NCBI GenBank assembly: GCA_019418305.1
Contig: DYCA01000028.1
Location: forward strand, 5,362-19,853
Source: Clostridiales bacterium
GTDB taxonomy: Bacteria; Bacillota; Clostridia; Oscillospirales; Butyricicoccaceae
Length of the DNA stretch: 14,492 bases
Direction: 5' to 3'
The position numbers were made by a program, and so were the translations under genes. Below are positions 1,577 through 6,063 of this stretch, in pieces (position 1 is the stretch's first letter; every line of letters starts with the position of its first letter). Under the pieces are notes generated by a model that saw only the letters and a program-made list of their open reading frames with translations, was not told the origin of the DNA and searched no databases.

Positions 1577-2764
1577 ATCCCACGCAAGCTGAAAAAGCTG
1601 CTCAGCCTTGTGCTCTGCGCAGCTTTCATTATCGTTATGCTCCCCGCACCGGCCCACGCACTGACATTAACCGCGGTCAACGATACGCTTCTGCCCTTGT
1701 CCGACAGCACCATGCCGACACGGCTGGGCGGTGAACTGTATGTCCCATATAGCGTGTTCTCTTCTCTGGGGGTTTCGGCTTCCAACGAGGATAATGTACT
1801 GAACCTGTCTTCCGGCGGCGAAACACTCAGCTTTTCCACCACAGAAGGATATGTATATGACCAGAATCTGAATAGCTATTCCACCCCGGCTTATGATATG
1901 AACGGCTCGATTTATGTGCCCGTCAAGCTGTGCTGCGGCAAATTTGGATTGAGCTATTCCACGCTGTCTGCCTATGGCGAAACTGTGCTTCGAATCACGG
2001 ACGGTTCTGCCTCCAGTGACTCTTCTTTTGCCTCCACTCAAGGCAGCGCTATCGAAAGCGCAATTAATGCATATAAGGGCATTACGCCTTCCCAACCCTC
2101 GGATAATGTGCCGCCCACGCCGCCGCAGCCGACGGAGCCGCCCATTCCAGAGGTAGAAGAGCAGCCTGCTCAAAAGCCTGCCCGTGTGTACTTAACCTTT
2201 TACGGCGCACCAACGACCAGCACAACACCCGCTATCTTGGATGCACTGCAAAGCGCCGGACGACTGGCAACATTTTTCCTGCCGACCGATACCTCTACCT
2301 GGCCGGACGACGTAATCCGCCGCATTGTCGCAGAGGGACATACCCCTGCCCTTCTGCTTAATGCAAATGAACAAACTTCATCCGAGGATATGCTCGCTTC
2401 GCTGACTGCCGCCAACGATCGGCTGAACTTTCTGACCGGTGTATCCGCCCGCATTGTCTCCAACGATACCGGCTGCAACAAGCTGACACAGGCGCAGCGC
2501 GATGCATTAACCGGAGCAGGCTATCGACTGTGGGATACTACTCTCAATTGTGGAGACGATACACAGTCCTCGGCACGCGCTTACGCTACCACCGCGCAGC
2601 AATTTGCTTCAACCACTGCAACCGTTATCCTCAGACTGCACCACAGCCGTAACACGGCGCAAACCGTACAGTTATTGACTGGCTATATGTCCCGTCAAGG
2701 GATTCCCTCCTCGCGTGTCACCTTTGGTACCACGCCCATCAACAGTGCTTCCGATACCCGATAA
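1577..2764 (+). CDS. secreted stalk-domain protein with degenerate polysaccharide-deacetylase-like domain
   Basis: Reading from ATC at 1577 gives 395 residues. Residues 1-28 are a classic signal peptide: basic PRKLKK, a hydrophobic core, then PAPAHA before the cleavage site. Residues about 30-140 (GGELYVPYSVFSSLG, GSIYVPVKLCC) resemble the copper-amine-oxidase-N / stalk-type wall domain of Firmicutes. A Pro/Glu-rich linker follows (about 173-201), then a NodB-like domain (about 203-395). Active NodB enzymes show TFDDG and an HxxxH metal pair. Here the first motif reads TFYGA (207-211) and the second region reads GHTPALLLNAN (254-264), so the metal ligands are absent. Later parts (ALTGAGYRLWDTTLNCGDD, TVILRLHHS) still match the fold. 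I infer a non-catalytic wall- or glycan-binding protein. An annotator would probably place the start at GTG 1610, which has no ribosome site and cuts off the basic n-region. Confidence 0.8.
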   Translation: MPRKLKKLLSLVLCAAFIIVMLPAPAHALTLTAVNDTLLPLSDSTMPTRLGGELYVPYSVFSSLGVSASNEDNVLNLSSGGETLSFSTTEGYVYDQNLNSYSTPAYDMNGSIYVPVKLCCGKFGLSYSTLSAYGETVLRITDGSASSDSSFASTQGSAIESAINAYKGITPSQPSDNVPPTPPQPTEPPIPEVEEQPAQKPARVYLTFYGAPTTSTTPAILDALQSAGRLATFFLPTDTSTWPDDVIRRIVAEGHTPALLLNANEQTSSEDMLASLTAANDRLNFLTGVSARIVSNDTGCNKLTQAQRDALTGAGYRLWDTTLNCGDDTQSSARAYATTAQQFASTTATVILRLHHSRNTAQTVQLLTGYMSRQGIPSSRVTFGTTPINSASDTR

Positions 2765-2811: not shown

Positions 2812-3309
2812 TTATATGCGTTTTCGAATATGCTCCAGCGCTCCCTTTTCCAGACGGGACACCTGCGCCTGTGAAATGTGGATTTCGTCGGCCACCTCCA
2901 TCTGAGTACGCCCTTCGAAAAACCGCAGACGGATGATGCGTTTCTCCCGCTCGTTCAAGCTGTCAATAGCCTCCCGCAATGCAATGCTGGCAAGCCACTG
3001 CTCATCGGTATTTTTATTATCCCCTACCTGATCCATCACGCAGACTGTATCCGTGCCGTCATGAAACACCGGTTCAAACAGCGAGACCGGGTCAAGGATG
3101 GCGTCCAACGCCAGTACAACCTCTTCCTTCGGCATATCCATCAGCTTTGCCAGCTCCACAATGTCCGGCTCACGCTGATGCTCGCGCACAAACGCCTCCT
3201 TGGCCTGCAGTGCCTTGTAAGCGGTGTCCCGCAGACTGCGCGACACTCGCAGCGCGCTGTTATCGCGCAGATACCTCCGAATTTCCCCAATAATCATCGG
3301 CATGAACAT
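2812..3309 (-). CDS. sigG: sporulation sigma factor SigG, C-terminal part of a split gene
   Basis: SigG directs RNA polymerase in the forespore after engulfment. From PMIIGEIRRYLRDN (starting at 3300) to the stop, about 162 residues match SigG closely: RVSRSLRDTAYKALQ, PKEEVVLALDAILDPVSLFEP, the region 4 text LNEREKRIIRLRFFEGRTQMEVADEI, and the helix-turn-helix ISQAQVSRLEKGALEHI. These cover the end of region 2.4 and regions 3 and 4. Full SigG is about 255-260 residues; regions 1.2 to 2.3 (core binding, -10 melting) are missing. In SigG the text before PMIIGE is FSTYAV; here the same frame reads DSCFRLCMFM, which is not sigma sequence. The in-frame ATGs at 3309 and 3303 lack a ribosome site. 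There is no frameshift or stop inside the remaining part. The gene is broken exactly where the recombinase gene ends. It may be a decayed remnant or one half of a gene restored by recombination; the sequence alone cannot decide. Confidence 0.88.
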   Translation of the reverse strand: MFMPMIIGEIRRYLRDNSALRVSRSLRDTAYKALQAKEAFVREHQREPDIVELAKLMDMPKEEVVLALDAILDPVSLFEPVFHDGTDTVCVMDQVGDNKNTDEQWLASIALREAIDSLNEREKRIIRLRFFEGRTQMEVADEIHISQAQVSRLEKGALEHIRKRI

Positions 3310-3328
3310 ACAAAGTCGAAAACAGCTA
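3296..3328. other. probable recombination junction (att site) between recombinase gene and sigG
   Basis: On the minus strand the recombinase stop codon (3328-3326) is followed after about 25 bases by the first recognisable SigG codon (CCG at 3300-3298). No promoter, ribosome site or spacer lies between. A serine integrase gene ending beside an interrupted conserved gene is the usual layout of an integrated element. The exact crossover dinucleotide cannot be read without the partner junction; I place it near 3298-3310. Confidence 0.6.
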
Positions 3329-4702
3329 TCCCGCAGAGGATTGACGCACCTCTGCGCCTTCAATCACATAAAATATCTCTATTTTATCGTTTTGCAGTAC
3401 GATTCTTTGCACGCAGGCACGCACCAGTGCCTGCTTCTCCACATCGCTCAGCCGGTCCCAGCAAGAGCCTATTGTTTGCAGCGCCTGTCGCGCGGCATCC
3501 TGCTCCTCTTGCCGCTCTGCCTGCTTGGCACACTCCAACGCCTGCTCTGCACGACTGCATTCCCGCCTAGCGCGAGCTATCGCGTCCCGCAGGGTATCAT
3601 CCTCCCCTTCCGCAAACAGCTCATATAAGCGGCGCAGCTTGCGCTGTGCGCGCTCGAGCGCATGCCGGCATTCTGCAGGCTCTTTCTTGCTGCCGCGCGG
3701 CGAAACCGGCTCAGCGGCCAGTCGGGACAAATCACGGATGACGACCGACTCCACCTGCCGCGCCATCACGCCGCGGTTCGGGCAGTTCGCATCGTGCACC
3801 AGATGCGGCTTGGATTTATCTCTCGAATAGCATACCAACTTATCGCCTGCACCGCCCCATTTCTGGTAACGCATTTTCGCTCCGCAATGCCCGCACACCA
3901 GAAGCCCGGTCAGCAGTTTACCGGATGAGGCAGCACGCGGTTTGTCCACACGCTGTAAACGCTGCTGAACGCGTTCAAACGTTTTTTTATCAATGAGCGG
4001 CTCGTGCCTCCCGGAATACGTCTCCCCACGATAAACTATCACCCCTGTGTTGCTCTCCCGCAAGAGAATCTGCCGCACAAGATGTTCATATTTCAGCCCC
4101 AGTTCACGCGCAATCCGCCCGGTCGACTGTCCCTCCAGATACCGCGCATAGATTTCACGCACGGTTTCTGCGTCACTGTTCGGCACCAGAATCCCCTTAT
4201 CCGCGTCGTAGTCATACCCAAACGGGATTTTGCCGCCGCCCGGCCAATAGCCCTGCTTAACACGTTCCACCATGCCCATGCGGGTACGCAAAAAAATGTT
4301 TTCTCGCTCGAGCTGCGCAAAAGCAGACAAAATACCAATCATTGCGCGCCCGTATGGACTGCCGGTATCAATATTCTCATTGATGGATACAAAATCCACG
4401 CCATGCGGCAAAAAAACGTCCTCGATGAGGTAAAGCGTATCTTTCTGACTGCGGCTGAGACGGTCCAGTTTGTAAACTACCACGCGCTCCACATTACCGG
4501 CGCGTATTGCCTCCACCAACTGAGTGATTGCCGGTCGTGTCAGATTGGAACCGGAAAAGCCGCCGTCTACATAACGCTCAAACTGCGCAATTCCTTTCAT
4601 GCGGCAGTATGCCTCGAGCTTTTCCGCCTGCGCTGCCAGCGAATAGCCTTCATCCGCCTGTGCCTCGGTTGAAACGCGCAAGTAAAGCGCTGTATGCTTC
4701 AT
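3326..4702 (-). CDS. large serine site-specific recombinase
   Basis: The 458-residue protein cuts and rejoins DNA at att sites through a serine phosphodiester. Residues 1-150 are the resolvase/invertase domain: LYLRVST with nucleophile Ser11, YKLDRLSRS at 77-85 with the active-site arginines, and INENIDTGSPYGRAMIGILSAFAQLERE (partly) at 107-134. The recombinase domain follows (GKIPFGYDY, then IYARYLEGQSTGRIARELG). A zinc ribbon uses Cys270, Cys273, Cys291 and Cys307. Residues about 341-405 are rich in Glu/Arg/Ala/Leu and look like the coiled coil that controls synapsis. The protein ends in IEIFYVIEG plus a short tail. It resembles SpoIVCA/phage-type integrases; length is typical. Translation appears coupled to the 62-codon ORF upstream (ATGA overlap at 4699-4702). 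All domains look intact, so it is probably active. Its 3' end abuts the sigG fragment. Confidence 0.95.
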   Translation of the reverse strand: MKHTALYLRVSTEAQADEGYSLAAQAEKLEAYCRMKGIAQFERYVDGGFSGSNLTRPAITQLVEAIRAGNVERVVVYKLDRLSRSQKDTLYLIEDVFLPHGVDFVSINENIDTGSPYGRAMIGILSAFAQLERENIFLRTRMGMVERVKQGYWPGGGKIPFGYDYDADKGILVPNSDAETVREIYARYLEGQSTGRIARELGLKYEHLVRQILLRESNTGVIVYRGETYSGRHEPLIDKKTFERVQQRLQRVDKPRAASSGKLLTGLLVCGHCGAKMRYQKWGGAGDKLVCYSRDKSKPHLVHDANCPNRGVMARQVESVVIRDLSRLAAEPVSPRGSKKEPAECRHALERAQRKLRRLYELFAEGEDDTLRDAIARARRECSRAEQALECAKQAERQEEQDAARQALQTIGSCWDRLSDVEKQALVRACVQRIVLQNDKIEIFYVIEGAEVRQSSAG

Positions 4703-4887
4703 ATTTCATCCCTTCCGAGACTGCATCCCTCCGTTTCCAGTATAGCAGAGGGGGCCGAGTCAGGCAATGGAAGCTGCTGCCTGCTGCGCGCGACACCCAG
4801 CAAAGCGCCGATTCCTTCCCGGTCCAGCAACAGCGGCGGCATTATGCCATGCAAGCGTCTGCCATTCAAATACCGTATCACCTGCAT
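4699..4887 (-). CDS. 62-residue protein coupled to the recombinase, unknown
   Basis: I do not recognise this protein. It starts MQVIRYLNGRRLHGIMPPLL and continues with LDREGIGALLGVARSRQQLPLPD, ending GRDEI. There is no membrane segment or cysteine motif; it is small and mixed in charge. Support for being real: the minus strand shows GGAG and AAAGGATG just before the ATG, and its TGA overlaps the recombinase ATG in ATGA, the usual sign of translational coupling. No convincing promoter is seen in the 100 bases upstream. Small proteins beside serine integrases sometimes act as recombination directionality factors; for this one that is only inference from position. Confidence 0.55.
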   Translation of the reverse strand: MQVIRYLNGRRLHGIMPPLLLDREGIGALLGVARSRQQLPLPDSAPSAILETEGCSLGRDEI

Positions 4888-4987
4888 CTCATCACATCCT
4901 TTCCACTCCTATTTTGCCCAGTTTTTTACCAATCCAGTCTTTACATGAAGCGTTACAGAAATTGCCCAAAATCTACTCAAATAATAC

Positions 4988-5088: not shown

Positions 5089-6063
5089 ATGTTTGAAAAT
5101 CTGATTGCTACGCTGAAGGCTGACAAGCGCAAGATCGTATTTACCGAAGGCTCCGATCCCCGTATTCTGGAAGCTGCTTCCCGTCTGAAGAAGGACGGTC
5201 TGCTGGATTCCATTCTGGTTGGTAATGTGGACGAAGTGAAAGCAGCAGCGCAGGCTGGCGGCTTCGATATCGAAGGAATGGAAATCATTGATCCTGCGAC
5301 CTATCCGGAAATGGATGCAATGGTTGCCAAGATGGTCGAACTGCGCAAAGGCAAGATGACCGAGGAGCAGTGCCGCGCTTCGCTCGCAAAGGGCAACTAT
5401 TTCGGCACAATGCTGGTTAAGATGGGCAAGGCGGACGCCCTGCTCGGCGGTGCTACTTACTCCACGGCAGATACCGTTCGTCCTGCGCTCCAGATTATCA
5501 AGACCAAGCCGGGCAATAAGATCGTAAGCTCCTGCTTCATTCTGCGCCGTGACGCAAAAGACGGCGGCGACGAGATGTATGCTATGGGCGACTGCGCAAT
5601 CAACATCAATCCGGGCGAGGACGATCTGGTTGAAATCGCCATCGAGACCGCCAAGACTGCCAAGGCTTTTGGCATCGACCCCAAGGTTGCCATGCTGTCT
5701 TACTCGACCAAGGGTTCCGGTAAGGGCGATACGGTTGATATGATGCGTAACGCGACCGAAAAGACCAAGGCCGCTGCACCGGAGCTTGCTGTTGACGGTG
5801 AGCTGCAATTCGACGCAGCCTTCTCCCCAGTCGTTGCTGCGACCAAGTGCAAGGGTTCCCCGGTAGCCGGTCAGGCGAACACCTTTATCTTCCCGGATAT
5901 CAATGCCGGCAACATCGGCTATAAGATTGCGCAGCGTCTGGGCGGCTTCGAAGCATATGGTCCGATCCTGCAGGGTCTGAACGCGCCGATCAACGACCTG
6001 TCCCGCGGCTGCAACGCGGATGAGGTTTATCAGATGGCGATTATTACCGCGGGCCTGAAGTAA
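5089..6063 (+). CDS. pta: phosphate acetyltransferase (phosphotransacetylase)
   Basis: Converts acetyl-CoA and phosphate to acetyl phosphate and CoA, feeding ATP formation by acetate kinase. The 324-residue length matches the short, single-domain Pta class (no DRTGG/BioD-like N-terminal extension). Family text includes IVFTEGSDPRILEAA at 16-30, GNYFGTMLVKMGKADALLGG at 102-121, LSYSTKGSGKGD at 203-214, NTFIFPDINAGNIGYKIAQR at 264-283 and GPILQGLNAPINDLSRGC at 291-308. A phosphate butyryltransferase was considered, but the whole-length pattern is Pta. The ATG has a strong GGAGGAG. It stands alone between its own promoter and the terminator at 6098; acetate kinase (ackA), its frequent partner, is not in the window. 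Confidence 0.95.
   Translation: MFENLIATLKADKRKIVFTEGSDPRILEAASRLKKDGLLDSILVGNVDEVKAAAQAGGFDIEGMEIIDPATYPEMDAMVAKMVELRKGKMTEEQCRASLAKGNYFGTMLVKMGKADALLGGATYSTADTVRPALQIIKTKPGNKIVSSCFILRRDAKDGGDEMYAMGDCAININPGEDDLVEIAIETAKTAKAFGIDPKVAMLSYSTKGSGKGDTVDMMRNATEKTKAAAPELAVDGELQFDAAFSPVVAATKCKGSPVAGQANTFIFPDINAGNIGYKIAQRLGGFEAYGPILQGLNAPINDLSRGCNADEVYQMAIITAGLK

Follow-up and report, generated by a model that had tools for sequence, protein, structure and literature searches.

In the 14,492-nucleotide stretch of DNA analysed here (the window; positions 5,362 to 19,853 of contig DYCA01000028.1, assembly GCA_019418305.1, filed as Clostridiales bacterium), the gene of the sporulation sigma factor SigG is split, and its 3' piece stands beside the gene of a large serine recombinase. 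In silico, we found the same split in related genomes, together with paired recombination half-sites at the break, conservation of these sites, and selection on both parts of the gene. On balance, we lean towards a reversible, forespore-linked site-specific inversion (or excision) as the process that would assemble sigG.

A split sigG in Agathobaculum and other Clostridia

As the initial annotation had it, the SigG reading in the window begins abruptly at PMIIGEIRRYL (3300), 25 bases past the recombinase stop codon, and the coordinates confirm that it runs for 162 codons, free of internal stops and frameshifts, to a stop that ends at 2812. While the split beside a serine recombinase gene stands, the two genes are not fused, as had also been proposed, but are adjacent frames parted by the recombinase stop. 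Against the SigG models TIGR02850 and NF006071, it scores 260 and 265 bits, short of both curated whole-protein cut-offs, and aligns from profile positions 92 and 95, respectively, through to the last; the first 91–94 SigG residues are therefore missing from the window. The recombinase carries the Pfam domains PF00239, PF07508, and PF13408. Since it is 96% identical to a recombinase of Candidatus Agathobaculum pullicola, the window DNA is most likely that of an Agathobaculum.

A scan of genome contigs with this recombinase gave 80 loci (the best 80 of 115). In the 21 Agathobaculum/Butyricicoccus loci (76–96% identity), orf62 (a small open reading frame, ORF), the recombinase gene, and then the sigG 3' piece follow one another closely without exception, and pta lies beyond orf62 in 19 (not seen in L002, at a contig end, and in L017). 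Among 25 Agathobaculum genomes, 22 have the 3' piece and no full SigG, and 20 of these 22 hold the 5' piece (profile about 2–96) at a separate locus; the 5' half for which the initial annotation had proposed to search is thus present in relatives. Moreover, a complete second sigG, which would have spoken against its account, was not found in the 22 split genomes at the threshold used. Two further genomes (G022 and G024) have both parts joined at this very site and no recombinase match at E 1e-60, and G025 has the 5' piece alone and no recombinase match. In 62 other genomes of the family, the junction is uninterrupted in 53, one (G081) has the 3' piece only, and eight gave no match at the threshold used. 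Genes for small acid-soluble spore proteins (SASPs) were matched in 22 of the 25 Agathobaculum genomes (interrupted in eight of them), and spore-specific genes are therefore kept.

The initial annotation had not foreseen how far the two pieces are from each other on the chromosome, a distance that rules out a simple skin-like insert. The contigs of G011 and G023 are about chromosome size (near-complete), while the other Agathobaculum genomes are drafts in which orientation is not readable. A distance of 112 kb separates the pieces in G011, where they share a strand (offsets from the dnaA antipode of +132 and +244 kb), and one of 757 kb in G023, where they are on opposite strands (+590 and −167 kb). 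Because the sites are opposed in G023, joining there would be an inversion of 757 kb across the terminus region, and because they point the same way in G011, joining there would form a 112 kb circle; that joining is always an inversion was rejected, since the two orientations differ. The promoter region of sigG lies with the 5' piece and is conserved between it and the joined genes in G022 and G024. An amidohydrolase gene (clustering in 18 of 19 fetched loci) and then a purine phosphorylase gene follow the 5' piece, and sigE lies slightly upstream in most genomes, though not in G011 and G014.

That other Clostridia have the same split was likewise not foreseen in the initial annotation. From 59 distant loci (44–54% identity) we chose 27, of which 26 had a nearby sigG 3' match and one (L042) had none; in the 26 genomes searched, which by this choice give no frequency, 25 gave a match confined to the 3' piece, and 17 gave one to the 5' piece. 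Both pieces lie on one contig, in excision order and 2.5–25 kb apart, in G028, G038, G041, G043, G044, G046, and G050. The element of G028 is only 2.5 kb, with a 185-amino acid (aa) ORF, a small ORF, and the recombinase. Two genomes (G047 and G049) have a full sigG plus a piece, and these full genes were ruled out as the joined form because their sequences differ from the piece. In the genus of Ruminococcus albus, 20 of 29 genomes have the full gene, eight the 3' piece (longer in G517, 73–253), and one neither. A pattern of the recombinase attachment (att) site, whose codons should prevent a match to an unsplit gene, was found in 6 of 391 evenly drawn Clostridia, two already known and four new; the reversed pattern was seen in none. 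In the four new ones (L180–L183, from G155, G159, G183, and G215), the sigG 3' piece has the att arm, but the 5.7–20 kb retrieved at each locus encodes no member of this recombinase family; such an enzyme may be encoded at another place and work in trans, or it may have been lost.

A 52.7 kb viral contig (L224, 915–3081) carries a recombinase with 45% identity to that of the window and 58% to that of R. albus, an intact attP-like palindrome (18 of 26 positions), and a weak relative (22%, E 3e-12) of the 185-aa ORF, in this order. This arrangement matches what would be expected of an uninserted element, and the contig is possibly a phage of a sigG-targeting family. A separate entry named 'Bacteriophage sp.' from human faeces (L222, MT839977.1) resembles a chromosomal piece with the recombinase and the sigG 3' part.

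The break as a recombinase attachment site

Judged by its sequence, the break in sigG is an att site of the recombinase. The junction of the 5' piece reads B arm, CC, P' arm, and that of the 3' piece P arm, CC, B' arm. We compared the arms in all 20 Agathobaculum genomes with both pieces and in 15 of the 17 distant genomes that had matched the 5' piece (all except G033 and G035). In 35/35 genomes, P and P' together make up one palindrome, being complementary at 12–21 of 26 positions, while shuffles average 6–8 (each p ≤0.015). TTTC is spaced 17 nucleotides (nt) from the core in the P half-site (20/20 Agathobaculum and 12/15 distant genomes) and 13 nt in the B half-site (20/20 and 13/15, respectively). 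As expected of a large serine recombinase, the half-sites flank a common core and are longer on the P side than on the B side. In att sites of the A118/TP901-1 type, too, the motif presumably stands at a greater distance from the core in P than in B. In the 15 distant genomes, arms pair better with their own partners (17.9) than across genomes (12.6; permutation p 0.0001). The consensus of the P arms reaches 0.81–0.86 versus 0.51 in adjacent DNA (ungapped comparison).

In the recombinase, the catalytic serine and the four zinc cysteines are invariant in 23/23 sequences, and with the three Pfam domains these are the features looked for in a large serine recombinase; its median ratio of nonsynonymous to synonymous divergence (dN/dS) is 0.101 (23 sequences; 230 of 253 pairs). 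ORF62, of 62 aa, lies directly before it in 21/21 Agathobaculum/Butyricicoccus loci. In the distant loci scanned, an ORF of at least 35 aa ends near the recombinase start in 37 of 54, and 10 of these 37 contain the motif R-[YFL]-[LIVM]-[ND]-G (both counts without a chance control). From its position, our guess is that ORF62 is a recombination directionality factor. Upstream of ORF62, at a distance of 31–35 nt, 20 of 23 loci (all but L002, L020, and L135) have the string GGNNANANTW, which we take to be the sigmaF −10 consensus; shuffled sequences give a mean of 0.9. This string is a candidate forespore-type −10 element. The sigmaF and sigmaG promoters of Clostridioides difficile are similar to those of Bacillus subtilis, and the sigmaF promoters have a conserved G upstream of −10 (PMC3789822).

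Selection acts on both pieces. The frame is open and indel-free over the compared codons in 20/20 genomes with both pieces (94 + 145 codons, or 717 nt, in 19 genomes; 617 nt, to the contig end, in G021). In the 19 genomes other than G021, the two pieces have median dN/dS values of 0.073 (5'; 170 usable pairs of 171) and 0.036 (3'; 150 of 171), silent sites being near saturation. More conspicuously, synonymous divergence over codons 87–100 in the 19 split genomes is 0.131 versus a mean of 0.424, the lowest of 225 windows of codons, whereas in 14 joined-gene genomes (G022 and G024 included) it is ordinary over codons 88–101 (0.505, mean 0.539, rank 52 of 225). This contrast reflects selection on the DNA site around the junction, only where sigG is split. 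The Shine-Dalgarno match is 5–7 nt before the 5' piece (21/21) and 0–3 nt before the 3' piece (23/23), the latter being without a ribosome-binding site in 23/23; a translation start of its own for each part, as in two-subunit sigma factors of the SigO/RsoA kind, was thus not found. When joined, the G011 frame scores 426 bits on NF006071, over the cut-off of 372, and does not reach the 457 of TIGR02850, a cut-off that the naturally joined G024 gene misses too. Taken together, the halves, the recombinase, the foreign arms, the synonymous conservation at the junction, and the missing ribosome-binding site fit DNA joining rather than a dead gene or a two-chain factor. The coordinates for the window are collected in Table 1.

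Table 1. Features at and around the sigG break, in positions of the window.
Feature	Position	Strand	Remarks
Polysaccharide deacetylase-like gene	1610..2764	plus	chromosomal neighbour, downstream of sigG
sigG 3' piece	2812..3300	minus	162 codons from PMIIGE, plus stop
B' arm within sigG	3273..3298	minus	GAAA at 13 nt from core, 20/20 Agathobaculum relatives tested
att core, dinucleotide CC	3299..3300	minus	common to both junctions; choice of centre inferred from symmetry
P arm (foreign half-site), GCTGTTTTCGACTTTGTATGTTCATG	3301..3326	minus	TTTC at 17 nt from core
Large serine recombinase, 458 aa	3326..4702	minus	resolvase, recombinase, and zinc ribbon domains
ORF62, small ORF	4699..4887	minus	4-base overlap with recombinase start; putative directionality factor
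Candidate forespore-type (sigmaF/G-like) −10 element, GGGCAAAATA	4910..4919	minus	32 nt before ORF62
pta	5089..6063	plus	chromosomal neighbour, upstream side

Joining of the pieces and competing explanations

In the sigG tree (34 rows), the two rejoined genomes (G022 and G024) fall inside the split clade in one open fork, and in a tree of six neighbour proteins (26 rows, only two of them outgroup rows) they fall inside it at separate places. Holding the split genomes as a single clade was rejected (p-AU 0.00026). The split is therefore most simply read as ancestral, and would have been undone once (or twice on the neighbour-protein tree) with loss of the recombinase. As separate observations on these two genomes, the rejoined sigG adjoins pta, at the place of ORF62 and the recombinase in others, and the GNAT and amidohydrolase genes are adjacent with nothing between them, so that the other locus is closed up (L134, L137, L162, L164, L170, and L171). 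The promoter with the 5' piece and ORF62 with the recombinase were apparently swapped as cassettes, for which one recombination event is an insufficient explanation.

For the process that we favour, a large serine recombinase with its attB inside sigG would have cut the gene between codons 94 and 95. The chromosome has two hybrid sites, with the 5' piece ending in B-CC-P' and the 3' piece beginning with P-CC-B' beside the recombinase, and their recombination would restore a SigG frame of 256 codons. This would invert 757 kb in G023, split off a circle of 112 kb in G011, and excise a compact element in Ruminococcus and some others. A serine integrase without its directionality factor would run towards the split; in skinCd, the sigK element of C. 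difficile, the recombinase alone is enough for integration (PMC5025042), and the split would therefore be the resting state. A directionality factor (ORF62 being the candidate) made in the forespore would then turn sigG on, and once this factor is lost, the recombinase would return the chromosome to its split form, either in the spore or during germination. Any circle would presumably stay trapped inside the spore. For comparison, the skinCd recombinase is constitutive, and a small factor limits excision to the mother cell (PMC5025042). Since in both C. difficile and B. subtilis SigG acts in the forespore (PMC3789822, PMC5025042), whose DNA is inherited, joining would have to be reversible. 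We infer, then, that joining takes place, that it is linked to the forespore, and that it is reversed.

A broader version, in which a genome-scale reversible rearrangement in the future spore turns on sigG and is undone before or at outgrowth, with a SASP gene and the end of sigG under like control, is one that we can offer only tentatively. Alpha/beta SASP genes are classical forespore genes. In 8 of the 25 Agathobaculum genomes, such a gene is cut between KMEAAA and EVGVNL (L214–L221, L225, L228, L229, L231, L232, L234, and L235). At the three loci whose ORFs were inspected, an ORF of 479 aa or more that resembles a recombinase ends just upstream of the 3' piece; among the eight genomes, the 5' piece lies upstream on the same strand and contig in six (4–23 kb), on another contig in one, and was not found in one. 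The sigG gene itself has a second break near profile position 236–243 (EIHISQAQ), where the SigG match stops, in G005, G002, G009, G017, G020, G022, G073, and G081. In G005 (L196, 1901–11645), which alone was inspected closely, about 9.2 kb of DNA separates the last 25 SigG residues from the rest, and a second stretch resembling a serine recombinase (23–31% identity) lies within this gap. A sigG in three pieces would hold for G002, G005, G009, G017, and G020.

Stochastic phase variation is unlikely, though a rival to be reckoned with; here, low-frequency flips in growing cells would yield a joined minority that sporulates (bet hedging), with no developmental control. The same conserved sites and recombinase would serve it, and integrated and excised subpopulations of yin coexist in one pure culture (PMC10747680). 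However, 22/22 genomes with this recombinase are split, though assemblies show the majority state only, and a candidate forespore-type −10 motif stands before ORF62. Improbable in our view is joining that is confined to the mother cell or to the time before division and is never inherited, with a forespore that has no SigG of its own. While skinCd excision is indeed restricted to the terminal mother cell (PMC5025042), SigG is the forespore factor in the two model species (PMC3789822, PMC5025042), and no other full SigG is found in the split genomes. We give slightly less credit still to a relic, that is, an integrated element that killed sigG in a lineage where sporulation was lost or became SigG-independent: no joined form was seen, but the frame is open and indel-free in all 20 genomes with both pieces, dN/dS is far below 1, and the rejoined genes of G022 and G024 are nested among split species.

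That the pieces are translated separately and then assemble as a two-chain sigma factor seems very improbable, even though both pieces are conserved and SigO/RsoA of B. subtilis is a precedent for a two-subunit sigma factor. The 3' piece has no ribosome-binding site of its own, G014 has ATC in place of ATG there (the next ATG, in PM, remains), and the conservation of synonymous sites and of the P arm would go unexplained. The remaining concern, raised in the initial annotation, was an assembly error at 3300. Nothing was found in favour of such an artefact, and it is very unlikely, to the point of being negligible, because the split recurs in isolates and metagenome-assembled genomes with the same junction in 21/21 related loci. 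Of the two outcomes first envisaged, restoration of sigG during sporulation and loss of SigG, restoration is the better supported, because both pieces are under strong purifying selection and the recombination half-sites are conserved.

Several points nonetheless weigh against forespore-linked, reversible joining. A joined sigG is absent from all 22 split assemblies (TIGR02850 search of the genomes), which record the majority state. Against 5.8 billion proteins, the joined-protein query gave a best full-length match of 93% (P0121, on a 1,165-nt contig) among the best 120 of 8000 scored (clusters at 90%), and full-length recombinases of at least 91% identity fill 52 of 120 listed clusters. The reciprocal junction was not found in viral contigs, a weak test, and spores in this genus are unrecorded in the open-licence PMC papers found. 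Within Agathobaculum, own-arm pairing (14.60) is no better than that across genomes (14.53, p 0.40), because the arms hardly vary there, and the inferred attB is only weakly symmetric (p 0.006–0.84). Moreover, the directionality factor and the ORF62 promoter remain candidates, and the orientation in G011 predicts a 112 kb circle, which is costly unless reversed. A joined form of the R. albus type was also sought and not found for the same species; the joined-form searches gave related full-length proteins only, in which an unsplit lineage and a joined form are indistinguishable.

Relation to known systems

Sporulation gene-intervening elements are already known as a kind. No paper on a split sigG or a split SASP gene was found among the listed open-licence PMC papers, as judged by titles and abstract starts, which is no proof of absence, and the word sigG is absent from PMC5595907 and PMC10747680. 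A split forespore sigma factor with separate chromosomal halves and genus-wide retention is thus undescribed in the open-licence literature found. The well-studied rearrangements of sporulation are held to be tolerable because the cell is terminal, as stated for skinCd (PMC5025042). A forespore sigma factor that is split in this way, and stays split throughout a genus and in further Clostridia, would be an exception to this rule. The broader version set out above, if true, would mean that a bacterium rearranges its germline chromosome in a programmed way. The split also makes it possible to test directly, by one polymerase chain reaction, whether inherited DNA is reversibly rearranged. Moreover, the split would explain the apparent absence of SigG in the annotation of such gut bacteria, and it bears on which of them can sporulate.

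Phage large serine integrases (phrog_95; relatives of A118 and TP901-1) have the same domains, although the Agathobaculum loci have no phage cargo next to the recombinase. The elements gin (gerE), yin (yabG), vfbin (spoVFB), and SP-beta (spsM) likewise bear a recombinase and restore their genes by excision (PMC5595907, PMC10747680), but their target genes are others and each is one block; gin, like skin, interrupts a gene of the mother cell. In the Listeria comK prophage, regulated excision occurs in non-terminal cells and reversal matters (PMC5025042), as we propose for sigG, though this is a prophage in a competence gene and not in a sporulation gene. The closest likeness is to skin, in the sigK gene of B. 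subtilis and, as skinCd, of C. difficile. There too a sporulation sigma gene is split at the att site of a large serine recombinase, with the recombinase beside the break and, in skinCd, a small directionality factor, CD1234 (PMC5025042). In the window, the recombinase gene lies next to a break in a sporulation gene, and in relatives with both pieces the halves share the att core and would rejoin in frame. In contrast, sigK acts in the terminal mother cell and sigG, by the literature on model species, in the forespore, so that use in a terminal mother cell is not what the sigG case offers. Moreover, skin is one block between its halves, and while a single block on one strand is also found in seven distant genomes, the Agathobaculum halves are at separate loci, inverted in G023. 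Because this one-block arrangement is lacking in G011 and G023, we do not file the window as a plain member of the skin kind.

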